From Blautia glucerasea (GTDB lineage Bacteria; Bacillota; Clostridia; Lachnospirales; Lachnospiraceae), in assembly GCF_013304385.1 (NCBI RefSeq), contig NZ_JAAITU010000015.1, forward strand, positions 1 through 64,000: a stretch of 64,000 nucleotides of DNA, given 5' to 3'. How positions within the stretch are numbered: the first letter of the stretch is position 1; each line of letters opens with the position of its first letter. Under the pieces are notes generated by a model. The model ran no database searches and had not been told where the DNA came from. It worked only from the letters and a program-made list of their open reading frames with translations. Of the stretch, positions 11,995 through 47,539 are shown one piece after another. The translations under genes and the position numbers were made by a program.

Positions 11995-11999
11995 GAACT

Positions 12000-32520: not shown

Positions 32521-32567
32521 AAAATCCCCAGCATACATTGTAAAAATGATGTACGCGGGGGATTTTT
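32521..32567 (+). promoter_or_regulatory. Hairpin and possible sigma-E -10 box in front of spoIIID
   Basis: AAAATCCCC (32521-32529) is inverted against GGGGATTTT (32558-32566), with a further GC.TACA/TGTA.GC pairing inside. The right arm contains the GGGGGA ribosome-binding sequence for the GTG at 32568. CATACATT at 32532-32539 matches the sigma-E -10 consensus; no good -35 is seen. The rest of the gap 32364-32520 has nothing recognisable. Confidence 0.45.
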
Positions 32568-32699
32568 GTGAAAGATTATATTGAAGAGCGTGCAGTGGAA
32601 CTGGGAAATTACATTGTAGAAAAGAAGGCAACTGTAAGACAGACCGCGAAAAAGTTTGGAATCAGTAAAAGTACAGTACATATGGAAGTAACAATATAG
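32568..32699 (+). pseudogene. spoIIID: spoIIID, 5' part, interrupted by the integrative element
   Basis: GTG start at 32568, five bases after GGGGGA. The frame reads VKDYIEERAVELGNYIVEKK, then ATVRQTAKKFGISKSTVH, which is the N-terminus of the sporulation transcription factor SpoIIID up to His38. After the core ACATA it runs into foreign DNA (five codons, TAG at 32697-32699). His38 sits in the DNA-recognition helix of the HTH, so this fragment cannot bind DNA as the intact protein does. SpoIIID acts in the mother cell after sigma-E and tunes sigK and many coat genes. The remainder of the gene is at 47372-47539. Confidence 0.93.
32678..32682. other. attL core of the spoIIID element
   Basis: ACATA shared with 47371-47375. 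Left of it is spoIIID; right of it begins the element with TGGAAGTAAC and, 14 bases on, TAGAACGGTT (32697-32706), one arm of the reconstructed attP palindrome. Confidence 0.85.
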
Positions 32700-32748
32700 A
32701 ACGGTTCGTTTGGGTAATAGAATAAGAAAAACCAAGGAGGAACGAACC

Positions 32749-33126
32749 ATGAAGGATTTGAAAACAAGAATTACGGAGAATGGCATTGATTATGTACTTG
32801 TCGGGGATTATTATATCCCAGACTTGAAGCTGCCGGAGGAAAAGCGATCTATCGGTAAGTGGGGACGAATGCACAGGGAGTATCTGAAAAAGCAGTGCTA
32901 CGGTAGATATTCCAGTTTACTGCTGACCGGAAAACTTTGGAGCTATCTGGAGGATTTGGACGAACAAGCGGAGGAACGGTTTACGTGTATTGTTGATCAG
33001 ATGAAAGCGGCTGAGGGAGTGACGGAGGAATTGAAGCGGAAAGATGCTATGCTTTGGGTACAACGGTGTAATAATATTAGAAACAGAGCAGAAGAAATTG
33101 TACTGAACGAAATGGTTTATATTTAG
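32749..33126 (+). CDS. TnpV-like protein
   Basis: A 125-residue protein beginning MKDLKTRITENGIDYVLVGD, with the TnpV pattern YYIPDLKLPEE and RMHREYLKK. TnpV was named from Tn4451-type elements that use the large serine recombinase TnpX. Its role is not firmly established, but a small-protein helper or directionality function has been suggested for such genes by position. Start: ATG 32749 after AAGGAGG. An 8-bp inverted repeat (GGTTCGTT 32703-32710, AACGAACC 32741-32748) brackets that ribosome site. It is the first gene of the element, next to attL. Confidence 0.8.
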   Translation: MKDLKTRITENGIDYVLVGDYYIPDLKLPEEKRSIGKWGRMHREYLKKQCYGRYSSLLLTGKLWSYLEDLDEQAEERFTCIVDQMKAAEGVTEELKRKDAMLWVQRCNNIRNRAEEIVLNEMVYI

Positions 33127-33133
33127 TATGGAG

Positions 33134-33160
33134 CAGTCAGCCGAAAGGCTGGCTGTTTTT
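33134..33160 (+). terminator. Terminator after the TnpV-like gene
   Basis: CAGTCAGCC pairs with GGCTGGCTG around a GAAA tetraloop, followed by TTTTT. Confidence 0.88.
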
Positions 33161-33183
33161 CTTTTCCTAGCGACAGAAAATGA

Positions 33184-33239
33184 TTGACAATGCTATAAGA
33201 CTGTGGTAGTCTGAAAACAAGAACAGACTACTGTAGTCT
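33184..33239 (+). promoter_or_regulatory. Promoter and BlaI-type operators
   Basis: TTGACA at 33184-33189 with a weak -10 TAGTCT at 33207-33212 (17-bp spacing). AGACTGTGGTAGTCT (33198-33212) and the perfect palindrome AGACTACTGTAGTCT (33225-33239) contain the ACTAC/GTAGT half-sites known for BlaI/MecI repressors. Confidence 0.8.
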
Positions 33240-33256
33240 TATAGGAGGCGAAACAA

Positions 33257-33625
33257 GTGACAGAGGAAAATATCAAACTTTTTGATTCGGAATTAAAGGT
33301 AATGGATGTTCTGTGGAAGGATGGTGACGTGCCAGCGAAATATGTTGCAGATACTTTAAACAGAGAAGTCAGCTGGAATAAAAACACAACGTATACATTG
33401 ATTAAGCGGTGTATCAATAAAGGCGCGATTGAACGAACGGAACCGGGATTTATGTGCCATGCGCTTATAGCAAAAGAACAGGTACAGGATCTGGAAACAG
33501 ATGAACTTATTGATAAGATATATGATGGATCTGTTGACAAGTTGTTTGCGGCACTTCTTGGCAGAAAAAAACTTTCTATGGAGCAGATTAAGAACCTGAA
33601 GCAGATCGTCAGTGAATTGGAATGA
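33257..33625 (+). CDS. BlaI/MecI/CopY-family repressor
   Basis: A 122-residue winged-helix repressor. ELKVMDVLWKDGDVPAKYVADTLN and NTTYTLIKRCINKGAIERTEPG are the DNA-binding half, and the C-terminal helices would dimerise (AALLGRKKLSMEQIKNLKQI). GTG start after AGGAGG. Two BlaI-type operators overlap its promoter. In BlaI/MecI systems the membrane protease BlaR1/MecR1 relieves repression; the BlaR1-like gene begins 10 bases downstream, so this is a complete two-gene switch. Confidence 0.9.
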   Translation: MTEENIKLFDSELKVMDVLWKDGDVPAKYVADTLNREVSWNKNTTYTLIKRCINKGAIERTEPGFMCHALIAKEQVQDLETDELIDKIYDGSVDKLFAALLGRKKLSMEQIKNLKQIVSELE

Positions 33626-33635
33626 GGTGATGTAT

Positions 33636-35660
33636 ATGAGCCTGCTGCAAATGAGTTTTCTGGGAACGGTTATTATTTTACTTATTGTGGTATTAAGGGC
33701 TGTGCTTATCAACAGATTACCGAAGAAAACATTTTTGATTTTATGGTGGATTGCATTAATACGGTTATTAGTTCCATTTTCCATAAAATCAGTCACAAGT
33801 ATTTATTCTCTGTTGCAGAGTATTTATTCTGATATAAACCCAGTGAGAACGGCGCAAACGACAACATTTTTACCCATTCATGGGAATATGCCTGAGATAG
33901 CAAATGGATTATCAGAGGCTATGGTACAGAGAACAGAATCCATTTCGATTTTGAGTGTAATATGGCTGGCAGGTCTGTTACTTTGTTTTGGATTTTTTGC
34001 GGTTTCCTATATAAAATGTTATCGGGAATTTCGATTTTCGCTGCCTGTTGAAAATGATATTTTGGAAGCATGGAAGGAAAAACATCCACTAAAAAGGAGT
34101 CTATCCATCCGGCAGACAGAAACCATAGCTGCACCACTTTCTTATGGTGTGATTCGCCCAGTTATTTTAATGCCGAAAAATACAGAATGGAAAAATATTT
34201 ATCAGCTTCGTTATGTGTTGGAACATGAATATGTGCATATCAGACGGCTTGATATGCTTACAAAGCTGATAATGATTGCTGCAGTATGCATTCATTGGTT
34301 TAATCCTCTTGTGTGGGTAATGTATATTCTTTTTAACAGAGATTTGGAATTATCCTGTGACGAAACCGTAGTCCGTAGATTTGGAATGGATATAAAGTCG
34401 GTATATGCAACTGCTTTAATATCTATGGAAGAAAAAAAGAGCGGACTGACACCATTATGTAACAGTTTCAGTAAAAATGCGATTGAAGAGAGGATAAGAG
34501 CAATTATGAAGATAAAGAAGACATCTAAGTTTGCAGTAATGATAAGTGCAGTATTGGTAATTTGCGTGACAGGTGGATTTGCAACTTCCGCATCATCCTT
34601 GGAGAAAAAGACAGAGACAGCGCAAGAAAACGGTGAAACAACAGTTGCTTTAAACGAAGTGAATATCCGGGAAGATGAATCACTTTCAAGTTCGGATGTG
34701 GAATGGTGGACAGCAGAAGAGTATGCGAAATGGCTGGACGAGGAAAAAGAAGTTCTGCAGTCTATGATTGGTGAAAAAGCTTATACAGGCGGCGACGGAT
34801 GGTTTGTATGGACACAGGAAAAGGTAGATGAGACGATTGCACTTTATGAGGATAATCTTCAAAAAATAAAAGATGGGATGAAGTTGTCGAAATCATCTGA
34901 TGATGCAGTGGGAATTACAATGGCATATTCTCCGGAAAATATAGAATATGCGAAGCAGGAAGCAGAAACGGTCACCGAAAATAAAGACAGTAATGAAAAT
35001 GTATTCAGCGAAGAACAGCTTTCTGAATATGCAAAAGCGGGAATAACTTACCAGAAAGAAACAGGATTTCTGATGTATGATGGAAAGACCATTGGATATT
35101 TCCGGGATGAGTTTAAGCCGGGTACTTATACAATAAGTTCCAAACGTGGAGGTACGCTTCGAGTTGAAGTGCAAAGGGAAAACTATGGCACCATCACAGA
35201 CGTAAAGGCAGAACCGTTATCAGATGATTTTTGGTCAGAACCGGCGGCATTGGTTGAAAGTTCCGGCGGAGAAGCTGTAACTGCAGATGAAATGAAAGGA
35301 TCTGTTTTTGAAGAAGGAGGAAGTGAGAACATAGCGGCTGATGACATGGGCGAATATAGCAGTGAAGAGGGAAAAGGTCTTAATATTGCTGTTCCACAGG
35401 AGTATGCTGATTATGGAGTATCCTGTGATGCTAAAGGAAACTGGGTTTATAATGGTAAGATTATAGCAGATTTATATGATGAGGGAAGGGGAATCTTTTC
35501 TAACAGCAACGGCACTATGTACATTGAAGTAACGAGAGACAAAAGTGGAAAGATTAGTAGCTTTCAAAAAGTAAGCAAAAATAGAATGCAGGAATTATTT
35601 ACTGAATTTAATCCGGAAACGGAAACATTTGCGGAATATAATTCAGAGGCGAAGCATTAA
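33636..35660 (+). CDS. BlaR1-type M56 membrane metallopeptidase without a penicillin-sensor domain
   Basis: A 674-residue protein: N-terminal transmembrane helices, then the M56 zinc-protease core with HEYVH (VLEHEYVHIRRLDM) and the third-ligand region NRDLELSCDETVVRRFG, a further membrane helix near residues 300-320 and a long extracytoplasmic C-terminus. The C-terminus has no penicillin-binding SxxK/KTG set. Instead it has WWTAEEYAKWLDEEKEVLQ and two similar segments (TYTISSKRGGTLRVEV, GIFSNSNGTMYIEV). It therefore senses something other than beta-lactams. ATG 33636 is preferred after GAGGTG; a GTG at 33612 would overlap the repressor gene. Confidence 0.83.
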   Translation: MSLLQMSFLGTVIILLIVVLRAVLINRLPKKTFLILWWIALIRLLVPFSIKSVTSIYSLLQSIYSDINPVRTAQTTTFLPIHGNMPEIANGLSEAMVQRTESISILSVIWLAGLLLCFGFFAVSYIKCYREFRFSLPVENDILEAWKEKHPLKRSLSIRQTETIAAPLSYGVIRPVILMPKNTEWKNIYQLRYVLEHEYVHIRRLDMLTKLIMIAAVCIHWFNPLVWVMYILFNRDLELSCDETVVRRFGMDIKSVYATALISMEEKKSGLTPLCNSFSKNAIEERIRAIMKIKKTSKFAVMISAVLVICVTGGFATSASSLEKKTETAQENGETTVALNEVNIREDESLSSSDVEWWTAEEYAKWLDEEKEVLQSMIGEKAYTGGDGWFVWTQEKVDETIALYEDNLQKIKDGMKLSKSSDDAVGITMAYSPENIEYAKQEAETVTENKDSNENVFSEEQLSEYAKAGITYQKETGFLMYDGKTIGYFRDEFKPGTYTISSKRGGTLRVEVQRENYGTITDVKAEPLSDDFWSEPAALVESSGGEAVTADEMKGSVFEEGGSENIAADDMGEYSSEEGKGLNIAVPQEYADYGVSCDAKGNWVYNGKIIADLYDEGRGIFSNSNGTMYIEVTRDKSGKISSFQKVSKNRMQELFTEFNPETETFAEYNSEAKH

Positions 35661-35690
35661 GTTAGTGCTAAATGAAACGAGGATGATTAA

Positions 35691-36122
35691 GTGGGAAAAA
35701 TATTGCTGGTATCATTCGAGGGAGATGAGGAAGAGTTGGTAAATTCTGTTATTTCCGTGTTAGATTCCGGCAGAGAAAAATTCCTTTTTCAGGAAATACA
35801 ACTTCAATCGAAAATAAGGCATAAGGGTATAGCGATTGATTTGAAACGGAGGGAAGTTGTTCGTGATAATAGAAAAATAGAATTAACTTACACCGAGTTT
35901 GAAATCCTGCAGTTATTAGCACAAAATCCAGGAAGGGTATTTAGTAAGGAGCAGATTTATGATGTAGTCTGGAAAGAAGCCTATTCTGGCGATTACAATA
36001 TTGTCATGAGTCATATCAGCCATATTCGTGAGAAGATAGAAGATGATCCGGGCAACCCGGTATATATTCAAACCGTCTGGGGTGTAGGATACAAGTTTAA
36101 TGAGAGGGCAGGCAGCGAGTAA
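35691..36122 (+). CDS. Stand-alone OmpR-type winged-helix protein
   Basis: A 143-residue protein whose C-terminal about 95 residues form a Trans_Reg_C winged helix (LTYTEFEILQLLAQNPGRVFSKEQIYDVVW, then VMSHISHIREKI and IQTVWGVGYKF). The N-terminal part is too short for a full receiver domain and shows no phospho-acceptor Asp pattern. GTG start. It is probably in the same transcript as the BlaI/BlaR1-like pair, 30 bases behind it, suggesting control of the same targets. Confidence 0.8.
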   Translation: MGKILLVSFEGDEEELVNSVISVLDSGREKFLFQEIQLQSKIRHKGIAIDLKRREVVRDNRKIELTYTEFEILQLLAQNPGRVFSKEQIYDVVWKEAYSGDYNIVMSHISHIREKIEDDPGNPVYIQTVWGVGYKFNERAGSE

Positions 36123-36139
36123 ATTCGCTGCCTTTCCTT
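36111..36139 (+). terminator. Terminator after the winged-helix gene
   Basis: GGCAGCGA (36111-36118) pairs with TCGCTGCC (36125-36132), followed by TTTCCTTT. The stem overlaps the stop codon region. Confidence 0.75.
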
Positions 36140-36152
36140 TACAGGGATGGAT

Positions 36153-37196
36153 TCAGATTTCGCTGAGTTTTAAGATAATATTGCTCTGCTGATACAACCA
36201 GTCTGTGAATTCTGTCGGACTGGTTGCTCCTGCCTTTACAGCTTTCTTACGCTGCAGAGCTTCTTTCTTAAAAAGGTCAAACGCATTTTTCATTTCTTCC
36301 AGGCGTTCAATCGGAAAATTAGCAGTTTTTTGGGATTTATTGATTTTATTACGCCAATTCTGGCATTCATTTTTATAAAGCAGATCATAGTTGTTTTCTC
36401 TGGCTCGTTCATCAAACTCCCTTTTGTTTTGAAGTGCCTGTGCTTTACGGCACTTATCACTGCACAGTTCATAACGCTGGCTTTTTGCCAGAAAATATTT
36501 TCCACAGACTTTGCACTGACGGAAACAAAGGCCCCAGTCATTCAGTCGATTCAAGTAATAAGTGATAAGCGGATAAAAAGAGCTGTAGGCAGCTACACAT
36601 TCTGTTCTGCGCCTATTATCCGGAAACCAAAGCTCAAGTCGGGTAATTTCAGCAGGAATATTGCGGAAATAAAGACTGCCAGTATGAAAACGTTCAGGTT
36701 TTCCAGTATCAGAATTAAAATTCATGACATTTTCTGTTTGGAATGCCTGAGTCAAAATTTGCATTTTTTCTATAAAATGATCACAGGCAGTATTACGGTC
36801 ACGATATTCCCTTGTAACAAGATATTCATTCCAAATACGGAATGCAGCATATATTCTCACCGGATCGTCGGTGAGATATTTTTTTGCCAGAAAATCAGCA
36901 GAGGTCTGTTCCAGTGCAGGCTGTTTCCAACGGTTAGTGTGCAATGCATCACGTAGAGGAGCGAGTCCATATATATTCCAGTTCTTCTCTTTATCATATT
37001 CAAAATTTATCAGAAAACGTCCGAGAGGGCGCGTTATATCATGCATGACATCGTTATCTTTATTTCCGTCCAGTCGAAAACGGATTTGCTGTTCTGTTCC
37101 GATTAAAATTCGCTCCTTCATTTTGTCTCTATCCAATGCCAGAACGAAGAGGATGTGGTCGTAGCAAGGTTCTTGCCTTATAAATTGATAAGCCAT
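36153..37196 (-). CDS. DUF6076-type protein with a treble-clef zinc motif
   Basis: A 347-residue cytoplasmic protein, the only minus-strand gene of the element. Residues of about 235-262 contain CKVCGKYFLAKSQRYELC...C, a CGNR-like zinc-finger arrangement suggestive of nucleic acid binding. The remainder is helical. The DUF6076 assignment is from memory of similar mobile-element proteins and should be checked. A promoter lies 60-90 bases upstream. Transcribed against the flow of the element, it may be an element-maintenance or regulatory gene; no function is known to me. Confidence 0.65.
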   Translation of the reverse strand: MAYQFIRQEPCYDHILFVLALDRDKMKERILIGTEQQIRFRLDGNKDNDVMHDITRPLGRFLINFEYDKEKNWNIYGLAPLRDALHTNRWKQPALEQTSADFLAKKYLTDDPVRIYAAFRIWNEYLVTREYRDRNTACDHFIEKMQILTQAFQTENVMNFNSDTGKPERFHTGSLYFRNIPAEITRLELWFPDNRRRTECVAAYSSFYPLITYYLNRLNDWGLCFRQCKVCGKYFLAKSQRYELCSDKCRKAQALQNKREFDERARENNYDLLYKNECQNWRNKINKSQKTANFPIERLEEMKNAFDLFKKEALQRKKAVKAGATSPTEFTDWLYQQSNIILKLSEI

Positions 37197-37253
37197 TTCT
37201 ATTTGCTCCTGTTTTATATGGTAATTTTAAAAAATATAATATTAGTTACATTT

Positions 37254-37282
37254 ATGGTATCGCGAAAGTATTGAAAAGTCAA
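37254..37282 (-). promoter_or_regulatory. Promoter of the DUF6076-type gene
   Basis: Minus-strand TTGACT (37282-37277) and TACCAT (37259-37254), 17-bp spacer. The gene-free stretch 37197-37512 otherwise holds only the leader of the HTH gene. Confidence 0.6.
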
Positions 37283-37512
37283 GATAAGATTGATAAGATA
37301 CGATTGCATGGTAATTTCGTACTATGCAGTGTACTTTGACAACTTTATGACCGTCTAACCTGAGATAAACCGCCATGATCTTCGATAAAAGAAGTGAGCG
37401 CATCCGAATGGATGACGTGTTGTATGCCTTGACAGCAGTATGACTCAGGAAACAGGAAAGATAAAACGGCAATGAGAAGCTAAAAAAATGAGATCAAAAA
37501 TGGAGGAACAAC

Positions 37513-37737
37513 ATGAGTGAAAATAAGAGATTAAACAATTATGATGAACTGCCTCTTGTACTGGATGTGGCTGATATTCAGCGGATTATGGGGATTTCCA
37601 GAGTAACGGCTTATGAACTGGTTCATACACCCGGTTTTCCGGCATTTCGAAGCGGCAGATTAATTAAGGTTAGTAAAATTGCTTTTTTCGAATGGATGGC
37701 AAAGGGAAATGGAAAGGTGCCGGAAAATAGTCACTAA
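37513..37737 (+). CDS. Excisionase-like helix-turn-helix protein
   Basis: A 74-residue MerR/excisionase-type HTH: LVLDVADIQRIMGISRVTAYELVHTPGFPAFRSGRLIKVSKIAFFEWM. Proteins of this kind bind near attachment sites or relaxase genes of mobile elements. GGAGG precedes the ATG. It lies ahead of the relaxase, so it may control mobilisation or act as an Xis-like factor for the recombinase; which of the two cannot be told from sequence. Confidence 0.85.
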   Translation: MSENKRLNNYDELPLVLDVADIQRIMGISRVTAYELVHTPGFPAFRSGRLIKVSKIAFFEWMAKGNGKVPENSH

Positions 37738-37918
37738 ATCTGGAGCAGAGCGGAGAGCGCAGTCTTTTGTGCAGGTTAAGGGCGGCAGCCATTGCCCAGT
37801 GAGTTGATGCGTGCGTCTACTCGTACTGGGTATTATCTGACGCAAAATCACGCAGGTTTGCAGCTTCGCCGCTTTATTCAATTTAGAAAAAATGCAAAAA
37901 AGGAGGGAAAGAAAATTA

Positions 37919-39157
37919 TTGAAAGCAACAAGACACAACGGACGCTCCGGGAAAAATGGCACTTACAATCCCAGGCATAATGATCGCCGTTTCGATTTGG
38001 AAAACAGTGAACATATTGATGCTGGAAGAGTCAGAAAAAATATTTACTGGGACTGTTACCGTGGCTATACCACAATGCAGAGCAGGGAAGAAGATTCTCA
38101 GGATATCAGTTTTGAGAAGATTGAATGTACTTTTTATCAGGAACATTATGGAATGCATATAGAAGCGCAGAATGAAAGAAATGCAAGAACCCGTCATACA
38201 GAGCGTAACCGATCTGTGGAAGATTTACTAAAAAACAATAAAACCTGTCCAGAGGAAACTATTTTTCAAATAGGAACAGTAGAAGAATCTGTTTCCTATG
38301 AAATATTGCTTGCGGTCGTACAGGACTTTACAAAGCAGTTTACAAATCGGTTCGGTTCTCATGTACATATTCTGGACTGGGCACTGCACTTGGATGAGGG
38401 AACACCGCACATCCATGAACGTCATGTATTTGATTGTGAGAATAAGTACGGGGAAATCTGTCCTCAGCAGGAAAAAGCACTGGAAGAATTAGGGATTCCA
38501 CTTCCAAAACCGGATAAACCCAAAGGCCGCAATAATAATCGAAAGCAGACTTTTGATGCTATTTGCCGGATAATGCTTTTTGATATAACCCGAAAATACG
38601 GGTTGCATCTGGAAGAAGAACCGTCTTATGGAGGGCGTGACTATCTTGAAAAACAGGATTATATTCTGTTTAAGCAAAAGGAACAGATGAAAAACCAGAC
38701 GGAAATACTGGATAGACTTACTTTGAAAATTGAGGATGTGGAAGCTCTGATCGATGAAGTTTCAGATATTGCTTACGACAAAGCTGTGGAGGTTGTGACG
38801 GATGAGGTCAGAGTGGAAACCCATAAAGAAGACATTCGTCTGGTAGAACAGTCAAAGGCGTGGGTGCTTTCCCCTGAGCGCAAGGCTTCCCAAAAAGAAA
38901 GGACTTATGCTGCAAGCCGATTGGATGGAGTAATTACCAAAATTACAAAAGCTATGCAGACAGCAGTTAAAACAATTCAGACCACGCTGATAAAACCAGA
39001 AGTCAAAAAGGCGAATACCGAGCAGATTAAGAAAAAAGCCAGAAGTTCCATTCTGGATAGGCTGACAAAAGCGAAAATTACTGCGGAACAGGAGAACCGG
39101 GAGCGATGGGAACACGAAGGAAGAATTAAATTAGGAAGAAACGATATGGAGTTGTGA
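37919..39157 (+). CDS. MobV-like relaxase
   Basis: A protein of about 412 residues. The histidine motif HLDEGTPHIHERHVFD matches the HxDExxPHxH motif of Pre/MobV relaxases, which nick DNA at an origin of transfer. The basic N-terminus reads KATRHNGRSGKNG followed by YNPRHNDRRFD. The TTG at 37919 gives that N-terminus and lies 11 bases after GGAGGG; an ATG at 37892 would precede the ribosome site. A long coiled-coil and basic C-terminus follows. There are no transfer genes, so mobilisation would need a helper. Confidence 0.75.
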   Translation: MKATRHNGRSGKNGTYNPRHNDRRFDLENSEHIDAGRVRKNIYWDCYRGYTTMQSREEDSQDISFEKIECTFYQEHYGMHIEAQNERNARTRHTERNRSVEDLLKNNKTCPEETIFQIGTVEESVSYEILLAVVQDFTKQFTNRFGSHVHILDWALHLDEGTPHIHERHVFDCENKYGEICPQQEKALEELGIPLPKPDKPKGRNNNRKQTFDAICRIMLFDITRKYGLHLEEEPSYGGRDYLEKQDYILFKQKEQMKNQTEILDRLTLKIEDVEALIDEVSDIAYDKAVEVVTDEVRVETHKEDIRLVEQSKAWVLSPERKASQKERTYAASRLDGVITKITKAMQTAVKTIQTTLIKPEVKKANTEQIKKKARSSILDRLTKAKITAEQENRERWEHEGRIKLGRNDMEL

Positions 39158-39178
39158 TGTAAAGGAAAGAGGAAAAGG

Positions 39179-39883
39179 ATGAATATATTTGAAGCAGTTA
39201 AACAGTCTGTGACTACCCGGCAGGCTGCAGAATACTATGGAATACGGGTAAACAGGAACGGAATGGCGGTCTGCCCGTTTCACCGTGACAAGAATCCGAG
39301 CATGAAAGTGGACAGGCGTTTTCATTGTTTCGGATGTCAGGCAGATGGGGATGTGATTGATTTTACGGCACACTTGTACAATTTAAAACCGAAAGAGGCG
39401 GCAGAGAAACTGGTAAGGGATTTTTCTGTATATTATGAGAACATGGGGCACAGCCCGCCACAGAGAAAACAAATCAAACGACAGCTAACACAGGAACAGA
39501 GGTATCTGCAGGCAGAAAATAGATATTTCCGTGCATTGGTAGATTACCTGCATTTGTTGAAACAGTGGAAAGAAGAGTATTCGCCGAAACAGATGGAAGA
39601 TGTCTGGCATCCGTTGTTTATGGAGGCATTGGAAAAAATATCAGAAATAGAGTACCTGCTGGATATATTATTATCAGGCACATTAGAAGAACGAGTTGCC
39701 GTAGTGGTAGCTCATGGGAAGGAGGTGACAGCGATTGAACAGAGAATTTCGGACTTTAACGCCACAGACACGACAGGAATTGTGCGAAGTAATGGATATA
39801 ATGGAAGCGGAGTTGACAGTAGAGGAAATCAGAGAACAACTGGAAATAACACAGAAGGGTGCTGTGAAAAACAATCGGCATAA
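39179..39883 (+). CDS. CHC2 zinc-finger (DNA primase-like) protein
   Basis: A 234-residue protein with an N-terminal primase-type CHC2 zinc finger: AVCPFHRDKNPSMKVDRRFHCFGCQADGDVIDF. No TOPRIM catalytic domain follows, only helices. Such truncated primase proteins pair with VapE-like ATPases in integrative elements and probably support element replication. Its last 149 bases overlap the next gene in another frame, so the C-terminal 50 residues are constrained by that overlap. Confidence 0.85.
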   Translation: MNIFEAVKQSVTTRQAAEYYGIRVNRNGMAVCPFHRDKNPSMKVDRRFHCFGCQADGDVIDFTAHLYNLKPKEAAEKLVRDFSVYYENMGHSPPQRKQIKRQLTQEQRYLQAENRYFRALVDYLHLLKQWKEEYSPKQMEDVWHPLFMEALEKISEIEYLLDILLSGTLEERVAVVVAHGKEVTAIEQRISDFNATDTTGIVRSNGYNGSGVDSRGNQRTTGNNTEGCCEKQSA

Positions 39884-41141
39884 CTGTAAGCTAATTTTAG
39901 AACATGATTCTCTGCTAAAAGGTGTATTCCGGTATAATATTTTGACTGAGCAGACAGACCTTGTAAAACCTGTGTGGTGGGAACGGATAAGCCCGGCATT
40001 CACAGATATGGATTTGAACTATATTATGCTTTATCTGGAAGAAACGTATGGTTTGACGATGGATAAGGTTGTGCAGAAAAGTATTGTCCATCAGGCAGAT
40101 CGGAACAAATATCATCCTGTCCGGAATTATCTGAATAGTCTGCAATGGGATGGACAGGAGCGTATCCGCTATGTGCTGCATCATTTCTTGGGCGCACCTG
40201 TGGATGAGTTGACGTATGAAAGTATGAAAATGTTTTTGCTGGGAGCTATTGCCCGTGCGTTCCGCCCTGGAATTAAGTTTGAATATATGCTCTGTCTGGT
40301 CGGTGGTCAGGGCGTAGGAAAATCTACATTTTTTCGATTCATGGCAGTAAAGGACGACTGGTTCACCGATGACATCGGCAAATTGGATTCGGAAAAAGTT
40401 TATTGTCAGCTTCGTGGTCATTGGATGATTGAAATGTCTGAAATGGTCGCAACGGCACGCTCTAAGAGTATTGAGGAAACAAAGAGCTTTCTGAGCAGGC
40501 AGAAAGAGACTTATCGGGATTCTTATGCAGTATATGCTCTTGATCGTCCGAGGCAATGTGTATTTGGAGGAACATCCAATATAAAGCGATTCCTGCCTTT
40601 TGACCGTACCGGAAATCGAAGATTCGTTCCAGTTCAGACGAACCGGGCAGAGATGGAGGTTCATATCCTCGAAAATGAGAAGGAATCCAGACAGTATATT
40701 GATCAGGTGTGGGCGGAAGCAATGATGTTGTACCGTAATGGGAATTTTAAATTGGCGTTTTCAAAGGAAACAGAAGCACAGCTTGATAAATTGCGGCAGG
40801 AGTTCATGGCGGATGATACGGAAGCCGGAATGATACAGGCATGGCTGGATGAACATGAGGATAGGAAAGTCTGTTCATTGATGCTGTTTAAGGAGGCACT
40901 GGACAATCCTTATATAAAGCCGAAGAAGGCGGAGACAGACCGCATCTGTGAAATTATGAATACAAGCATTGTGGGTTGGAAACAGGGTACGATGACAAGA
41001 TTCAAGGATTACGGTACACAGCGTTCGTGGGTATGTGTAAACGAAAACTGTAAACGAGATGCAAAAGACTTAAAAAATGAAAATGACTGGTACCCGGTTA
41101 CTGAGGAGAAAGCCCGGCAGATGGAGTTACCCTTCCGGTAA
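39735..41141 (+). CDS. VapE-like P-loop ATPase
   Basis: A 468-residue protein of the virulence-associated E family, replication-type helicase/ATPases of phage satellites and integrative elements. Walker A is GGQGVGKST within YMLCLVGGQGVGKSTFFRF. ALRAF-like AIARAFRPG and a later GGTSNIKRFLPFDRTGNRRF sensor/arginine region are present. TTG start at 39735, 10 bases after GGAGG, inside the CHC2 gene. It likely initiates or assists replication of the excised element. Confidence 0.85.
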   Translation: MNREFRTLTPQTRQELCEVMDIMEAELTVEEIREQLEITQKGAVKNNRHNCKLILEHDSLLKGVFRYNILTEQTDLVKPVWWERISPAFTDMDLNYIMLYLEETYGLTMDKVVQKSIVHQADRNKYHPVRNYLNSLQWDGQERIRYVLHHFLGAPVDELTYESMKMFLLGAIARAFRPGIKFEYMLCLVGGQGVGKSTFFRFMAVKDDWFTDDIGKLDSEKVYCQLRGHWMIEMSEMVATARSKSIEETKSFLSRQKETYRDSYAVYALDRPRQCVFGGTSNIKRFLPFDRTGNRRFVPVQTNRAEMEVHILENEKESRQYIDQVWAEAMMLYRNGNFKLAFSKETEAQLDKLRQEFMADDTEAGMIQAWLDEHEDRKVCSLMLFKEALDNPYIKPKKAETDRICEIMNTSIVGWKQGTMTRFKDYGTQRSWVCVNENCKRDAKDLKNENDWYPVTEEKARQMELPFR

Positions 41142-41448
41142 AAAGCCAGTCAGGTTTACGGTAGTTGGCGTGTAGTTTACGCTTTTATCTATGGTTATTG
41201 CTTTGAGTCGTAGAATTTGTAAACAGTAAACAGATATATAAGAGTAATTTGGTATTGAGGAAAGAAAACTGAAAAAACAAAAAGAATTAGATTTTTTGGA
41301 GCTTGTTTACAGCAGTGGTTTACAACAGGGATGCCCCTTTGACCGGCATCTATTTAAGTTGAACAGGAATGACATTTGGTAGGACTATTTGAAAAAATAT
41401 TTTCATAGTTATGGACAAGGATATACGGGAGGAGGTGGAAATTCCGCT

Positions 41449-41625
41449 ATGAAAAAGAGAAAACTTAATTATCGATTCCATAATCCAAACACAGCGGAAG
41501 TAACCGCCGACTATCTGTTAAAGATATTGATTGAAGCAAATGCAAGTAAGGTGGAACAGGCAATACAAGAAGCAGCGGATGAGCTTCCCAATGAACCAAA
41601 ACATGATGGAGGGTGTCCTGCGTAG
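41449..41625 (+). CDS. Small conserved element protein
   Basis: A 58-residue protein, MKKRKLNYRFHNPNTAEVTA and on to NEPKHDGGCPA, with GGAGGAGG ahead of the ATG at 41449. An upstream TTG at 41389 is open in frame but lacks a ribosome site. Function unknown; small proteins like this recur in Lachnospiraceae integrative elements. The 300 bases before it (41142-41448) show no other gene. Confidence 0.65.
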   Translation: MKKRKLNYRFHNPNTAEVTADYLLKILIEANASKVEQAIQEAADELPNEPKHDGGCPA

Positions 41626-41753
41626 CGCGTGGGATGCCTTTTATTTTTTTGCTATTGCTTGTGTTCTGTCTGAAAATCAGTTAAAATTAGTTCTAGAAAG
41701 TCATAGATTAGTCATAGAATTTAGTCATAGAAAATTTTGAAAGGCGGAAGAAT

Positions 41754-43427
41754 ATGATATATACGGATAGCCAATTAAAAGAAAAGATTGTTCGCATGAT
41801 AGAATCTTTTGAAAATGAAGTTGTAGAATTTAAAGAAGCACGCACAAATTATTCGTTTAATGACATTGGTAAATATTTTTCTGCACTTAGCAATGAAGCA
41901 AATCTTCGGGGATTACAGGAGGCGTGGCTGATTTTCGGAATTTCGGATGATAAACGATATGTAGGAACGGAATTTCGGAAACAGGGAAGTCTGCAAAGTT
42001 TGAAAAAGGAAATCGTAAATGGAACCAATGAACGATTGACATTTCTGGAGATATACGAACTGACAATGGAAAAATGTCGAGTGATAGCATTTCAAATTCC
42101 TCCAGCTATTAGGGGGATTCCGACAACATGGCAAGGGGCAGCGTATGCCAGAGAGCATGAATCTATATCACCGCTTCCGATGAATAAAGTAGATCTACTT
42201 AGAAGTCAAATAGGAATGGATTGGTCAAAAGAAATTGTAGAAGATGCAACGATAGAAGACTTGGATGAAGAAGCGATTAAAAGAGCAAGAGAACTTTTCT
42301 CAAAACGTCAGAGTGATCGAAAAAAAGCACAGGAAGTTTTAAAGAAACTGTCTGATATTGAGGTTTTAAATAAAGCTGGTATTACAATAAAAGGAAAAAT
42401 CACCAGAACGGCATTATTGTTATTAGGAAAAAGTGAGGCTAAATATTTCTTTGATGGCTTTATTCCTAGAATTACCTGGACACTTTATAATGCAGATAAT
42501 TCGGTAAAAGCTTATGAACATTTTGATATACCGATGTTAATGGCAGTGGATAAGGTATATTCCAGGATCAGAAATGTAAAGTATCGTTATATTGCCGGAC
42601 AGCAGACTTTGTTTCCGGATGAAGTAGATCAATATGAACCAGAGCTGATCAAAGAGATTATTAATAACTGTATTGCTCATCAGGACTATCGCTTGCGTGG
42701 AAAAATCAACGTAGAGGAATTTGAGGACAGACTGGTATTTATCAATGAGGGGGCTTTTATACCAGAAACTATTGAACAAGCACTGGAACCGGGATATAAA
42801 CCACCGTATTATCGAAATGTGTTTTTGTGTAACGCAATGGTAAATCTGTATATGATTGATACAAATTCAATGGGAATACCAATGATGTATCAGATACAGC
42901 GTGATAAATGCTTCCCATTGCCGACATATGATTTGAACACAATTAATAGAGTTACAGTGACTGTGTACGGAAAGATATTGGATAAGAATTATACTCAGCT
43001 TTTATATTCCAATGAAGATTTAGATATGAGAACTGTATTTTTGTTGGATAAAGTTCAGAAACAGGAAGTAGTTTCTAAAGAAAGCTTTAAGGATTTGAAG
43101 AAAAAAGGTCTTGTGGAAGGACGTTATCCTAATGTTTTTGTATCTTTCAAGGTGGCAGATATTGTCGGACAGAAAGCTGCTTATGTTCGAAATAAAGGGT
43201 TAGATGATGATATTTGCAAGCAGTTAATTATAAAAGCACTTCAGTCAATGGGAGAAGCCAGCAAAAAAGATTTGATGGAAGTTTTAGAGAAGGCTTTGCC
43301 GGAGGTGCTGAGTGAGGAACAGAAATCAAAGAAGGTTTCAAATTTGCTACAAGTATTAAAGAAAGATGGGATAATTGAAGTTAGTGGTGGGAATAGATAT
43401 TCCAAATGGTTTGTAAAAAACAAATAG
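41754..43427 (+). CDS. AlbA_2/Schlafen-type protein with HATPase_c_4 domain
   Basis: A 557-residue protein. The N-terminal AlbA_2 domain has FENEVVEFKEARTNYSFNDIGKYFSAL and WLIFGISDDKRYVG. The middle domain has ELIKEIINNCIAHQDYRLRGKINVEEF and EDRLVFINEGAF, the GHKL-like 'AAA_4' arrangement. A winged-helix C-terminus ends in KKDGIIEVSGGNRYSKWF. Relatives are called ATP-dependent helicase-like or RNA-binding regulators and are frequent in defence islands. It is followed after 39 bases by two AT-rich unknown genes. The role is unproven. Confidence 0.8.
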   Translation: MIYTDSQLKEKIVRMIESFENEVVEFKEARTNYSFNDIGKYFSALSNEANLRGLQEAWLIFGISDDKRYVGTEFRKQGSLQSLKKEIVNGTNERLTFLEIYELTMEKCRVIAFQIPPAIRGIPTTWQGAAYAREHESISPLPMNKVDLLRSQIGMDWSKEIVEDATIEDLDEEAIKRARELFSKRQSDRKKAQEVLKKLSDIEVLNKAGITIKGKITRTALLLLGKSEAKYFFDGFIPRITWTLYNADNSVKAYEHFDIPMLMAVDKVYSRIRNVKYRYIAGQQTLFPDEVDQYEPELIKEIINNCIAHQDYRLRGKINVEEFEDRLVFINEGAFIPETIEQALEPGYKPPYYRNVFLCNAMVNLYMIDTNSMGIPMMYQIQRDKCFPLPTYDLNTINRVTVTVYGKILDKNYTQLLYSNEDLDMRTVFLLDKVQKQEVVSKESFKDLKKKGLVEGRYPNVFVSFKVADIVGQKAAYVRNKGLDDDICKQLIIKALQSMGEASKKDLMEVLEKALPEVLSEEQKSKKVSNLLQVLKKDGIIEVSGGNRYSKWFVKNK

Positions 43428-43466
43428 TCAAAAAGATTCATAATGTTAAGGAAGGGAGACACATAG

Positions 43467-44636
43467 ATGAAAATTTTAGATTTAGTAGATGATGTAAGAA
43501 GTGGCTGTAAGTCTGTTTTAACAACGATGACATTAGAAGAATATAAGAAATTGTCATTTTTTGCGTTTAATAATAATGGAAACATTGATGGACAGCGAAG
43601 TGTTATAAAACGTTCTTCTACAGCGGCGAAAATTCGAAAGCGTATGGCGGATGATTTTAGAAAAGGAGCAATTTTTCCACAGGTAGTTTTGGGAGTGCTT
43701 TTTTCAACTGAGAATATGCAAAATTTGGATGAATCAAAATTTTACATGTTGTTAGAAAGTGTTAATGAGGGGCAGATTTCTATTATTGACGGTATGCAGA
43801 GGAGTAATATATACTTTGAAAATTATGAGGACAATAAACAACAAAAAATCCGTGTGGAATTTTGGTGTTCAGATGCAAGTACTAAATTATTATATCGAAT
43901 GCTTGTTTTAAATACAGGGCAGGTTCCGTGGAATACTCGCAGACAGTTAGAAGTGATTTTTGATGGAATAAGTAATAAAATTTCTGAAGAAATCAAAAAG
44001 ACAGATCCATTGCTTGATATTCAACTGAATATTTTAGCTGTTGATGAAATTAAACGACGTAAAGCGGGAATGTTTAAAAAATCATCACTTATTGAAATGT
44101 ATCTTGGATTTAATACAAGAAAAGTGAATGTTGATGTTAATGATGAACTGGCAGATGAATTTCAACGTTTTGATATGATGGAAGCAATTGATAGTGCAGT
44201 AAATTTTGAAATGTTTGTAGATACTTTTCGCAATCTGTGTAAGTTGGATTTTGCAGTAACGGCTACAAGTGAAACTGTTGAAGGTAAACAGTTTGCATCT
44301 GGACAAGATTTGTTCCGTAGTGATCCGGTATGTTTAGGTTTTGTGGTTTCATGTGCAGAGTATATTATGGGAAAAATGGGAGTTCAACGCAGTGATGAAG
44401 AAAAACGAAATAGAGCATTAGAATTGGATAATAAAATTGCAAAAGTAATAAAATGTATTGAAAGTAAACCAGAGACATATTTAAGTCTTGAAGTTTTGAA
44501 TGAAATTGTTGAAAAGTTACCAAGAACACGAATTGGTGATAGCTTAAGGCATTTATTTAAAAATGCTTTTAGCGAGTTAATTCGCTATGATAAACTTGAA
44601 GAGATTCCTTCTATGGAGACGTTTTGGAGAGAATAA
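43467..44636 (+). CDS. Unknown protein with a DGQHR/ParB-like motif
   Basis: A 389-residue protein, AT-rich in codon use compared with the chromosome. IDGMQRSNIYFENYED together with LLYRMLVLNTGQVPWNTRRQLE resembles the DGQ(H/Q)R segments of DUF262, DndB and ParB-like nuclease-superfamily proteins. An early NGNIDGQRSVIKRSSTAAKIRKRM is also present. I cannot assign it to a named family. It is tightly followed (2 bases) by the next gene, so the two probably act together. Confidence 0.6.
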   Translation: MKILDLVDDVRSGCKSVLTTMTLEEYKKLSFFAFNNNGNIDGQRSVIKRSSTAAKIRKRMADDFRKGAIFPQVVLGVLFSTENMQNLDESKFYMLLESVNEGQISIIDGMQRSNIYFENYEDNKQQKIRVEFWCSDASTKLLYRMLVLNTGQVPWNTRRQLEVIFDGISNKISEEIKKTDPLLDIQLNILAVDEIKRRKAGMFKKSSLIEMYLGFNTRKVNVDVNDELADEFQRFDMMEAIDSAVNFEMFVDTFRNLCKLDFAVTATSETVEGKQFASGQDLFRSDPVCLGFVVSCAEYIMGKMGVQRSDEEKRNRALELDNKIAKVIKCIESKPETYLSLEVLNEIVEKLPRTRIGDSLRHLFKNAFSELIRYDKLEEIPSMETFWRE

Positions 44637-44638
44637 GT

Positions 44639-45745
44639 ATGTCAAGAAATCTATTACAAATGACGGGTAAGATTTTTGATGAGTTTGCTACCCGAGTTAG
44701 TGAGGAACATAAAGAATATATTGTATCTGTAAATAGACATATATCTATAAGCGAAGAAAATCGGGCAGAGTGTTGTGAATTATTAAAAGATGCAATTATA
44801 ATCGGTAGGAGACATGATTATTTGCCCACAGTTGTTTTTATAAAATATAAGGAAGAATTTTATGTAGGAATAGATACAAGGTATGCTGAAAAATTTGAAA
44901 ATTTTGGATATGTGATGGAAGAAAGGGCCGCAATTTGTATCGGATGTCAAATTTTAAGTATAACAGAAAAATATTACCAACTAAAAGTAGAATCAAGAGA
45001 ACTGATAGATTATTGTTTGGGATTACAACCAGAAGAAGGTATGGATGCGGTTGTTTTTTCAGAAGATAATATTCTTGACTTGATTTATGGATTATCAATT
45101 TTTAAGGTGGTAAATAATGAGTTGGAAATAGATATTGATTCTTTGGATGATGTGTTGAGAGTTTCAGTATTATTATTGATTGCGAATAGTGAAAAAATAA
45201 CTCCTGTTTATAAAGAAACTATGGAAAAACTATTATCAATGATATGTGTAAGGAAAATATGCAGTAATATTTTGGATTTTCTTATCATCAAAGACACTAG
45301 AATTAAATTTTTAAGTTTATATCAATGCATAGAATTTCTCTTTATTCCAAACAGGGCAAGCGAATTTGTACAAAAGTATAATATGAATATTTCGGATGCA
45401 TTAAAATTACATATAAATGAAGCGATGAGAAGGGATGAACGAATAAACGCATTAGCAATCTTAAAAATTGCAGGAATGCCTTTGATTCATAAGATGTACA
45501 TTTTATTGTTTAATGAATCAGAGGGTGATAATGAGTTAGAACGCATTAATAATTGGATATATGACAAAAGATGCTCAATAGCTCATTTTAGATATGGACA
45601 ACAAAAAAATGAAGAAACATATGTAAATGAAGAAATATTAGAAATGATGTTAGAATTATTAGTAGGGATTTTTTCAAATATGAATCAAAATATGAAAGAT
45701 ATTTGTAGTGGACTTGTAAAATTAGAGGAAAGTACTTTGGCATAA
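44639..45745 (+). CDS. Unknown protein with HEPN-like C-terminal motif
   Basis: A 368-residue protein. The ATG at 44639 follows GGAGAG and the previous stop by 2 bases. Most of it is unrecognised. Near the C-terminus, NNWIYDKRCSIAHFRYGQ contains an R-x4-H arrangement in a helix, as in HEPN-domain RNases, and the region before it is all-helical. The HEPN reading is tentative. With the preceding gene and the AlbA_2 protein it forms a compact cargo block between the replication genes and the recombinase. It ends in a terminator. Confidence 0.6.
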   Translation: MSRNLLQMTGKIFDEFATRVSEEHKEYIVSVNRHISISEENRAECCELLKDAIIIGRRHDYLPTVVFIKYKEEFYVGIDTRYAEKFENFGYVMEERAAICIGCQILSITEKYYQLKVESRELIDYCLGLQPEEGMDAVVFSEDNILDLIYGLSIFKVVNNELEIDIDSLDDVLRVSVLLLIANSEKITPVYKETMEKLLSMICVRKICSNILDFLIIKDTRIKFLSLYQCIEFLFIPNRASEFVQKYNMNISDALKLHINEAMRRDERINALAILKIAGMPLIHKMYILLFNESEGDNELERINNWIYDKRCSIAHFRYGQQKNEETYVNEEILEMMLELLVGIFSNMNQNMKDICSGLVKLEESTLA

Positions 45746-45763
45746 ATGCTAAGGTACTTTTTC
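45728..45763 (+). terminator. Terminator after the cargo block
   Basis: GAAAGTACTTTGGCA (45728-45742) pairs with TGCTAAGGTACTTTT (45747-45761) with two wobble pairs, ending in a T-run. The stem includes the last codons of the preceding gene. Confidence 0.85.
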
Positions 45764-45766
45764 TTA

Positions 45767-45795
45767 TTGTTATTTTATTTAAAACAGTGTATACT
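45767..45795 (+). promoter_or_regulatory. Sigma-A-like promoter of the serine recombinase
   Basis: TTGTTA (45767-45772) and TATACT (45790-45795), 17-bp spacer. TGTAACAG occurs twice in the leader (45801-45808 and 45820-45827) with AAAGT/ACTTT pairing between, possibly an operator. No clear sigma-E promoter is seen. Confidence 0.65.
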
Positions 45796-45840
45796 AAAGT
45801 TGTAACAGAACGACTTTAATGTAACAGGAAGGTATCAACT

Positions 45841-47376
45841 ATGAATATAGCTGCCTATTGCCGAGTTTCCACCGATAAAGCTGACCAGCTCAACAGTCTG
45901 GAAGCGCAAAAAGAATTTTTCTCTGAGTACACCCAGCGTACCGGTGACAACTTAGTAAGATTATATGCTGACGAAGGAATTTCAGGTACAAAAATAAAAA
46001 ATCGAAAAGAATTTTTACGCATGATGGTAGATGCCGAGCATGGACTGTTTGATATGGTGGTTGTAAAGGATATTTCCCGTTTTGCAAGAAACACGGTTGA
46101 CCTTCTGCAAAACGTCCGCAAGCTGAAAGCATTGGGTATCGAAACACAGTTCCTGACAGCCAATATGACCAGCATGGGAAACAGCGAATTTGTCCTGACG
46201 ATTTTTGGCGCACTGGCGCAGGAGGAAAGTGCTAATACTTCTAAGCGTGTAAAGTTCGGCAAGAAAATGAATGCAGAAAAGGGACGAGTTCCGAATATTG
46301 TGTACGGATATGATAAAACCATCGGTGATTACTTTAATTTGGCAATCAATGAGGAAGAAGCAGCTGTTATCCGTCAGATTTATAGATGGTATATCGAAGA
46401 AGGTTACGGTGCCGCCAAAATTGCGAATATGCTGAATGCCAAGGGCATCCGGACAAAGCGTAATTGCCAGTGGAGCCAGAATGCAACCTGCCGGATTCTG
46501 ACAAATGAGCTTTATACCGGTAAAATCATCAATGGTAAGCAGGAAGTAGCTGACTTCCTGACCGGACAGAGAACGGAAAAAGATGAAACGGAGTGGATGG
46601 TAACAGAACGTCCGGAACTGCGGATTATTGAGCCGGAAATGTATGAAAAGGCACAGGAGATTTTGGAGTCCAGAAGCAAGGCTTTTAAATTAACGAAGGA
46701 ACGGCAGAGCAATAAGTATTTGTTTTCTACTCTGATTAAATGTAAGGAGTGTGGCTGGTCTTTCCGACGAACGGTTCGTACCTATAAGAATACCTATATT
46801 CGCTGGGTCTGCTCCGGTCATAATGGTCGTGGTGCGGATAGCTGCCCCAATGCGCAGACAGTAGACGAAGAAGAGCTGATTGAAGTTTTATCCGAATATT
46901 TTTCCGAGCTGCTGAAAGCAAAGAAAAATGTAATTCGTCATGTGACGAGTGAATTTCAACGGGTTTACAAGGCGAAAGACGAGAATCTGAATTACGAAAA
47001 GGAACTGAATGCACAGCTTCGCAAGCTTCAAAAGATGCGTCAGAAATATATGGATATGTACACAGACGATCTCATTACCCGTGAGGAATTGAATGAAAAA
47101 ATCGGCGGAACAAAACAGGAAATCGAGCGTCTGGAAAATGAGTTGAAAATGGTTGCCTATCATCTGACAAAAGGAGAACAGCTGGAAACAATCCTGAATC
47201 GTACTTTTAAAGAGATTGAAGATATTTCAGATGTCCGCCAGATGACCAATGCACAGCTAAAACGCATAATCCAGAAAATCGAAGTGGACAAGGATGGTAA
47301 TGTAGATATTTATTTACGCATCTTTGGAGATTTGGGCCTAGATGAAACCGTTCTAATTAGTGACAACCAAACATAA
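45841..47376 (+). CDS. Large serine recombinase of the spoIIID element
   Basis: A 511-residue site-specific recombinase. The catalytic domain starts MNIAAYCRVSTDKADQLNS (Ser10), with KDISRFARNTVD and the E-helix region. A recombinase domain follows (AAVIRQIYRWYIEEGYGAAKIANMLN), then a zinc ribbon (IKCKECGWSFRR...C...C) and a coiled coil near residues 370-450. The size matches the skin-element recombinases SpoIVCA and the C. difficile sigK recombinase (about 500 residues). AGGAAGG precedes the ATG. The stop codon TAA (47374-47376) is formed across the attR core. It should catalyse integration and excision between the ACATA cores. Confidence 0.95.
   Translation: MNIAAYCRVSTDKADQLNSLEAQKEFFSEYTQRTGDNLVRLYADEGISGTKIKNRKEFLRMMVDAEHGLFDMVVVKDISRFARNTVDLLQNVRKLKALGIETQFLTANMTSMGNSEFVLTIFGALAQEESANTSKRVKFGKKMNAEKGRVPNIVYGYDKTIGDYFNLAINEEEAAVIRQIYRWYIEEGYGAAKIANMLNAKGIRTKRNCQWSQNATCRILTNELYTGKIINGKQEVADFLTGQRTEKDETEWMVTERPELRIIEPEMYEKAQEILESRSKAFKLTKERQSNKYLFSTLIKCKECGWSFRRTVRTYKNTYIRWVCSGHNGRGADSCPNAQTVDEEELIEVLSEYFSELLKAKKNVIRHVTSEFQRVYKAKDENLNYEKELNAQLRKLQKMRQKYMDMYTDDLITREELNEKIGGTKQEIERLENELKMVAYHLTKGEQLETILNRTFKEIEDISDVRQMTNAQLKRIIQKIEVDKDGNVDIYLRIFGDLGLDETVLISDNQT
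47371..47375. other. attR core of the spoIIID element
   Basis: ACATA identical to 32678-32682. To the left lies AACCGTTCTA (47346-47355), the arm complementary to TAGAACGGTT (32697-32706) at the other end; the distances from each arm to the core are symmetrical (11 bases plus CCA or TGG). Confidence 0.85.
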
Positions 47377-47539
47377 AGATGTGACAGAGCGTCTGGCGTC
47401 TATTCGTCCGTCTTTGGCAGAACGGACACGGGAGGTATTGGAGGTGAACAAGCAGGAACGACATATCCGGGGCGGACTGGCTACAAGGGAGAAGTACCTG
47501 CATCTTCATGAAAAATATCCAGAGCAGGATGGTGGTTAA
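47372..47539 (+). pseudogene. spoIIID: spoIIID, 3' part
   Basis: Without a start codon of its own, the frame from CAT 47372 reads HKDVTERLASIRPSLAERTR then EVLEVNKQERHIRGGLATRE and ends EKYPEQDGG with TAA at 47537-47539. This is the C-terminal part of SpoIIID, including the conserved IRGG-ATREKY basic segment. Joined at the core to codons 1-38 upstream, it gives a 92-residue protein in frame, close to the 93 residues of the B. subtilis protein. It is followed by a perfect 8-bp GC-rich stem (47548-47567) without a T-run. Confidence 0.93.

Follow-up and report, generated by a model that had tools for sequence, protein, structure and literature searches.

The sporulation gene spoIIID is interrupted by a DNA element in the 64,000-nucleotide stretch of Blautia glucerasea DNA analyzed here (hereafter, the window), and joining its two parts at a shared ACATA restores the gene. 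The split, its exact repair in silico, its recurrence in other genomes, and a mother-cell-type promoter pattern shared by a small gene of these elements, encoding the HNPN protein, are plain in the sequences. We consider it highly probable that these are mobile, cargo-carrying elements that sit in spoIIID and excise once sigma-E makes HNPN. Developmental excision and the role of HNPN in it we infer with strong comparative support; an earlier note on this DNA had described the split and had likewise presented developmental control as an inference.

The split spoIIID gene and its repair in silico

The two copies of ACATA that bound the element inside spoIIID are 14,693 bp apart. The coordinates bear out the placing of the two halves in the earlier note, as does the match of both halves to the SpoIIID family Pfam PF12116 (E values 2.2e-19 and 4.8e-19); in the SpoIIID model TIGR02844, they aligned to positions 1–41 and 34–79. 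In-silico joining at ACATA gave, as claimed, an in-frame SpoIIID of 92 amino acids with a score of 154 bits; the intact relatives used to build the SpoIIID model scored 157–170 bits. Two checks proposed in the note were carried out. A profile search of the 3.99-Mb source assembly (99.97% complete) detected no second spoIIID at an E value of 0.001, and the gene was found uninterrupted in 25 other Blautia genomes. ACATA by itself is weak evidence; the case for a split rests on the 21-bp inverted arms, the architecture common to 23/23 complete elements, and the 25 intact genomes of the genus.

The attachment site of the element (attP) is a near-palindrome in which 21-bp arms flank NNACATAN, and by counting, its center is the dinucleotide CA. 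An alignment of 29 left junctions, 105 right junctions (at least 15 of them repeats of the same places), and 21 intact genes showed that the arms recur and derive from the element and that the outer sides are host spoIIID. We regard these elements as a site-specific family with the recognition-helix codons of spoIIID as the predicted bacterial attachment site (attB). The G+C content of the element in the window is 38.4%, versus 43.5% and 43.8% in its flanks.

Among 64 Blautia genomes searched, 38 had spoIIID matches: 25 were intact and 13 had halves only, all broken at the same codon. Among these 13, a single half was retrieved from G015 and from G034, and in G008 and G078 the two halves lie on separate contigs. 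In 397 genomes of the host's family, a spoIIID match was obtained in 240 and reached the curated cut-off in 209; the recombinase was detected in 21 at an E value of 1e-100. The best 80 recombinase loci, of at least 80 in GTDB genomes, were then surveyed. The C-terminal half of spoIIID (C-half) lay directly downstream of the recombinase gene in 75 of these, and its frame was open in all 75. The remaining five are L111, whose contig ends with the start of this C-half, L121, which ends with its contig, and L062, L067, and L074, which have other DNA downstream; the host of L067, a Christensenella, had no spoIIID match, so that no standard site is available to that element. Sixteen carrier genomes were picked from the best 80 loci (L059 and L060 repeat the Blautia genomes G005 and G004), and all except the sixteenth, the Christensenella, had two spoIIID halves and nothing above the cut-off. 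Carriers include Blautia massiliensis GD8, Blautia schinkii MSK.6.26, Schaedlerella arabinosiphila, Agathobaculum butyriciproducens, Angelakisella massiliensis, and two Pseudoflavonifractor phocaeensis strains.

Three properties of skin-type elements were found together: a sporulation coding sequence with no other copy is interrupted (in the source genome and 15/16 carrier genomes), the element has its own site-specific recombinase with attL and attR at its ends, and precise excision in silico restores the reading frame in 23/23 complete elements.

More distant relatives were also encountered. A recombinase of only 57% identity in a record filed as Bacteriophage sp. (L256, MT838016.1, 2113–3790) is likewise followed by a spoIIID C-half, which means that the record includes host DNA. 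L139 comes from an IMG/VR contig of 62 kb, 21.5 kb of which was read, and has a 70% identical recombinase beside an uninterrupted attP, CCGTTCTATTATCTAACGACC GTGCATAC AGTAGTAATAATTTAGAACGG in joined form. By inspection of its open reading frames (ORFs), which include polymerase-, ligase-, and tail-like ones, L139 is phage-like; no HNPN was present among frames of at least 60 residues in the 21.5 kb read. The joined attP and these ORFs suggest that the family extends into phages. A variant layout was seen in L052 (G061, 1447–12105), with a more distant recombinase just after the spoIIID 5′ half and not before the 3′ half. In L058 (G013:C44, 1590–2195), a second, intact spoIIID is preceded, ~0.2 kb upstream, by a 5′ half of the gene together with attL and a short remnant of an element; the two N-terminal copies are identical in residues and carry many synonymous differences, as if an intact spoIIID had been re-acquired beside a dead element. 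G111 and G431, of one genus, have three spoIIID matches each (best E values 4e-34 and 1e-32), so a second copy of spoIIID may harbor the recombinase relative there.

HNPN, its promoter pattern, and a proposed mechanism of excision

Twenty-four complete elements of 3.8–16.3 kb were collected, and 23 were kept after removal of one duplicate. Joining gave an open SpoIIID of 82–92 amino acids (103–168 bits) in 23/23, and both halves were open. Only the recombinase and HNPN were common to all 23 elements; the next protein independent of the recombinase gene occurred in 9/23, and the other clusters present in at least 10 elements were shadow frames, almost all members of which overlap the recombinase gene (8/13 in one cluster). 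With incomplete loci included, HNPN was found in 77 of the 92 that had enough upstream sequence, and in the other 15 it was not found within the DNA examined. An Xis-like helix-turn-helix (HTH) gene at 37,513 had also been considered as the directionality factor and was dropped because its cluster occurs in just 5/23 elements. HNPN may not mark spoIIID elements exclusively, as it was also present in L037 and L042, which had no spoIIID in the DNA examined; two spoIIID matches of partial strength are present, however, in the L037 genome (G257). At L253, the HNPN gene adjoins a spoIIID 5′ half. More distant HNPN genes retrieved in an order-wide search mostly had CATA-type motifs upstream as well.

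A conserved block lies upstream of HNPN, typically in the form GGACTATTTT-N12-CATAGNNATGGACAAAG. The pattern (A/C)TA-N15–17-CATA, 20–75 bases before the HNPN start, was present in 66/71 unique upstream sequences, the spacer being N16 in 65 of 67 matches, and the exact ATA form occurred in 21/71. As controls, the pattern occurred in a mean of 1.9 upstreams in first-order Markov resamples (200 resamples, maximum 6) and in 3/90 recombinase upstreams; on the latter count, the arrangement of B. subtilis skin, with a sigma-E promoter for the recombinase gene, was rejected. A simple sigma-A scan matched 41/90 recombinase upstreams versus 9/71 HNPN upstreams. In C. difficile, sigma-E promoters are reported to have ATA at −35 and a −10 common with sigma-K (PMC3789822). 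The spoIIID upstream in the window reads ATA-N16-CATA, and by eye, many relatives' spoIIID upstreams, split or intact, are similar. The pattern in 66/71 upstreams suggests that HNPN may be under mother-cell sigma control. Moreover, a GGACAA box was found 4–8 bases after CATA in 36/71 HNPN upstreams, versus 0.01 in resamples and 0/90 recombinase upstreams. This box resembles the B. subtilis SpoIIID site (consensus GGACAAG), and its position suggests repression of HNPN by restored SpoIIID.

We propose that in growing cells, a constitutively made recombinase would keep the element integrated. In the mother cell, with sigma-E active, a sigma-E-type promoter of its own would drive HNPN, which would direct the recombinase to attL × attR excision, and spoIIID, with a promoter of the same type, would be rejoined in time to act. 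As SpoIIID is a product of excision, HNPN expression cannot require SpoIIID. In about half of the relatives, restored SpoIIID would then repress the directionality factor via the GGACAA box at the HNPN start. The element would be retained by the forespore and therefore inherited.

Mobility, selection, and alternative explanations

Compared with four Blautia genomes (L044, L045, L053, and L057), the element in the window was ~97% identical in its backbone over 8–11 kb and ~90% identical in its recombinase, and in the same comparisons, the spoIIID 5′ half was 74.5–76.5% and the 3′ half 60–66% identical. Between L044 and L045, the flanks were 80% identical versus 99% for the recombinases. Judged by these identities, spoIIID elements clearly move horizontally between species, and purely vertical inheritance was ruled out, as many pairs show transfer. 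Five pairs look vertical (flank/recombinase identity): L107–L115 (93.9/93.5%), L088–L090 (98.9/98.1%), L099–L103 (99.4/97.4%), L089–L093 (84.3/87.2%), and L092–L098 (93.2/97.2%), the last giving a single alignment across recombinase, C-half, and flank at 93.9%. In the co-diverged element–flank pairs, the halves remain open. The spoIIID parts of these five pairs had 14 synonymous versus 2 nonsynonymous differences (11 and 2 in L089–L093 alone), and the other three distinct pairs (L077–L079, L044–L053, and L071–L080) added 24.5 synonymous and 7.5 nonsynonymous ones; eight distinct pairs were counted, a ninth repeating a genome. Given roughly three nonsynonymous sites for every synonymous one, these counts reflect purifying selection, part of which, in transferred pairs, may predate insertion. 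The decaying halves of a degenerate insertion were not found: the C-halves were open in every recombinase-adjacent case, and the differences were biased toward synonymous ones.

The sporulation capacity of the hosts was evaluated from marker proteins. SpoIVA was full length in 13/13 Blautia genomes with a split spoIIID, 21/25 with an intact one, and 3/26 that lack spoIIID, a group with many incomplete genomes. Two long SigK-family matches were obtained in 12/13 split genomes and one in G015; they span ~24–224 of 227 and ~18–226, reached the curated cut-off in only 1/64 genomes, and are probably SigK and SigE. The description of the element as skin-like in the earlier note is supported by the single-copy split gene, the full-length SpoIVA, and HNPN behind a mother-cell-type promoter pattern in each of the 24 complete loci.

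An ordinary integrative element or phage with spoIIID as attB, excised upon stress or transfer and leaving its carriers sporulation-defective until rare vegetative excision, is unlikely in our estimate. Such an element would account for the horizontal movement (~97% in the backbone versus 60–77% in the spoIIID halves) and agrees with the joined attP of the related phage-like contig L139, the often sigma-A-like recombinase promoter, and the fact that Blautia is often called sporeless, but it leaves unexplained the mother-cell-type pattern on the only other universal gene, the full-length SpoIVA in every split genome, and the synonymous-biased divergence of the halves in co-diverged pairs. The alternative raised in the earlier note, a recent insertion that ended sporulation, does not account for the HNPN promoter pattern or the intact halves. 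It is very improbable that the element inactivates sporulation to its own benefit or that of a host adapted to spore-free life, with spoIIID being lost: sporulation-gene loss does look common in the genus, where 26/64 genomes, many of them incomplete, have no spoIIID match, but the open C-halves (75/75), the two open halves of every complete element, and the contrast in full-length SpoIVA between split genomes and those without spoIIID speak against loss. The source assembly consists of 175 contigs, which might point to an assembly artefact or chimaera; the same split in assemblies of one or few contigs (G067, G086, and G004) and at 75 loci of other records refutes this by recurrence, and we give it practically no credence.

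Several observations weigh against excision driven by HNPN in the mother cell. Among assemblies representing one genome per species, no integrated strain showed an excised chromosome junction or a circular form of the element. Four joined proteins scored well below intact ones (L072, 103 bits; L066, 115; L078, 123; and L138, 142). HNPN, the candidate factor, had no family match in Pfam, NCBIfam, or PHROGs, and its single-sequence structure model was poor (predicted local distance difference test, pLDDT, 67). The promoter pattern was picked after sequence inspection, before the resamples and the recombinase control were computed. A stricter first −10 pattern, CATAnnnT, fitted just 34/71 HNPN upstreams and missed the window; it was changed to (A/C)TA-N15–17-CATA because the common −10 form, CATAGNNAT, is one base longer. 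Exact ATA at −35 is absent from 50/71 HNPN upstreams, including that of the window (45 show the CTA form only and 5 miss the pattern). Many pairs show transfer, and few substitutions are datable to the split state. Furthermore, a review describes most Blautia strains as sporeless (PMC7872077), and the open-access literature searched yielded no usable spore-formation phenotype for carrier strains.

Relation to known elements and other features of the element

By experiment, the recombinase CD1231 of the C. difficile skin element in sigK is constitutive, and CD1234, a directionality factor of 72 amino acids reported without database relatives, is under sigma-E and SpoIIID (PMC5025042). The likeness lies in a serine recombinase with a sigma-A promoter, a small element-encoded factor under sigma-E (both promoters putative here), and a mother-cell sporulation regulator gene that is split and restored (here in silico). 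However, the target here is spoIIID, which is earlier in the cascade than sigK, and CD1234 needs SpoIIID for full expression, which is impossible where SpoIIID is the product of the split gene. B. subtilis skin (sigK; SpoIVCA) also leaves a mother-cell regulator gene during development, as we propose here; there, sigma-E and SpoIIID control the recombinase itself (PMC5025042), whereas the candidate timing gene here is that of HNPN. The gin element in gerE of Bacillus cereus ATCC10987, with a serine recombinase plus GirX, is likewise a non-phage element that splits the gene of a very small mother-cell DNA-binding regulator, but it measures 28.6 kb, has three recombinases, and interrupts a late gene (PMC5595907), whereas the spoIIID family occurs in many genomes at 3.8–16.3 kb (24 complete loci). 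Elements also reside in yabG (yin, Clostridium botulinum) and spoVFB (vfbin) (PMC10747680) and in spsM (SP-beta; PMC4191935); these are prophage-like and occupy other targets, namely late coat or metabolic genes. As in the large-serine-recombinase elements of Durrant et al. (2022), one target gene is common to diverged recombinases; the targets there are magnesium chelatase, prolyl isomerase, and competence genes, and the term spoIIID is absent from the main text (PMC10083194).

The genes reported as interrupted include sigK, spsM, spoVFB, gerE, and yabG (PMC5595907, PMC10747680), and unspecified strain differences in spoIIID are mentioned for Anaerostipes (PMC12888040). The earlier note was aware of no spoIIID case, and we likewise found no spoIIID-intervening element in the open-access literature searched; publication elsewhere, chiefly in subscription journals, is possible. 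The element would thus belong to a widespread mobile family and act as a skin-type switch, in a gene that is new as a target and comes earlier in the cascade. If so, programmed DNA rearrangement extends to the mother-cell regulator acting right after sigma-E, and is common and recurrent in commensal gut bacteria rather than peculiar to isolated strains of Bacillus and Clostridium. The split would also account for spoIIID seeming missing or broken in some Lachnospiraceae, which bears on genome-based calls of spore formers. It makes testable the idea that a mobile element gains host tolerance through the timing of its exit, and for work on serine recombinases and their use, HNPN is a candidate family of directionality factors that comes with dozens of matching recombinases and attachment sites. 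A more far-reaching proposal, which we advance tentatively and would not yet bet on, is that spoIIID is a licensed, standing docking site for mobile DNA in gut Clostridia: phages and cargo islands would share the recombinase family, sigma-E-driven HNPN would excise them in the mother cell and so spare sporulation, and SpoIIID would shut off HNPN via the GGACAA box, making a self-limiting switch ahead of sigma-K.

Coordinates in the window of the split gene, the element ends, the promoters, and the element genes
Feature	Position	Strand	Basis or remark
5′ part of spoIIID, GTG start through ACATA core	32568..32682	+	Profile matches; read into element ends ...SKSTVHMEVTI*
3′ part of spoIIID, frame open to stop at 47539	47376..47539	+	Profile matches
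Left copy of crossover core ACATA (attL)	32678..32682	.	Junction alignment, joining in silico
Right copy of crossover core ACATA (attR)	47371..47375	.	Junction alignment, joining in silico
Left arm of attP (GGAAGTAACAATATAGAACGG)	32684..32704	.	Inverted counterpart of 47348–47368
Right arm of attP (CCGTTCTAATTAGTGACAACC)	47348..47368	.	Junction alignment
Putative sigma-E-type promoter of spoIIID, ATA-N16-CATACATT	32513..32539	+	Sequence pattern; similar by eye upstream of intact spoIIID in many relatives
HNPN protein, 58 aa, candidate recombination directionality factor	41449..41625	+	In 24/24 complete loci, 23/23 without duplicate
Putative mother-cell (sigma-E-like) promoter of HNPN gene, CTA-N16-CATAGTTAT	41385..41412	+	Sequence pattern
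GGACAAGG, conserved box beside expected start site, candidate SpoIIID operator	41413..41420	+	Sequence pattern
Large serine recombinase, 511 aa, ORF end at right junction	45841..47376	+	Pfam PF00239+PF07508+PF13408; phrog_95
Sigma-A-like −10 (TATACT) and conserved GTAACAGAACG / GTAACAGGAAGG leader repeats of recombinase	45790..45832	+	
TnpV-family protein (cargo)	32710..33126	+	Pfam PF14198
BlaI/penicillinase-repressor-type regulator (cargo)	33257..33625	+	Pfam PF03965
BlaR1-type M56 peptidase/sensor (cargo)	33612..35660	+	Pfam PF05569
Response-regulator C-terminal DNA-binding protein (cargo)	35691..36122	+	Pfam PF00486
DUF6076 protein (cargo)	36153..37196	-	Pfam PF19553
Small HTH / excisionase-like protein (cargo, not universal)	37513..37737	+	HTH_17; TIGR01764 below cut-off
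Large ORF with relaxase-like HxH stretch	37892..39157	+	Putative motif, no family match
CHC2 zinc-finger primase-like protein	39179..39883	+	Pfam PF01807
VapE/DNA-helicase-type replication protein	39735..41141	+	Pfam PF05272, phrog_1313
Schlafen/AlbA_2 protein (cargo)	41754..43427	+	Pfam PF04326
DzbA-like antiphage defence protein (cargo)	43467..44636	+	PADLOC PDLC03835, E 1.5e-47
DzbB-like antiphage defence protein (cargo)	44624..45745	+	PADLOC PDLC03836, E 4.6e-8

No phage structural or packaging Pfam families were found among the scanned ORFs of the element in the window. Cargo varies from element to element, and in the window it also comprises the replication genes. The DzbA/DzbB-like antiphage pair (43467–45745) is cargo located between the HNPN gene and the recombinase. 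The large ORF at 37892–39157 had no match in Pfam, NCBIfam, or PHROG, and its cluster occurs in 5/23 elements; its HxH-containing stretch presumably resembles that of a relaxase.

The recombinase has Resolvase, Recombinase, and zinc-ribbon domains. Its ORF stops exactly at the junction, where host DNA at attR completes the TAA stop codon, and in the joined, circular form, the frame extends to 525 amino acids; the C-terminus of the recombinase may thus differ between the integrated and free states. The conserved GTAACAGAACG and TAACAGARAGG repeats, located between promoter and start of the recombinase gene (45802–45832 in the window, and in relatives), resemble the attP arms. These leader repeats possibly serve autoregulation by the recombinase or as a SpoIIID site.

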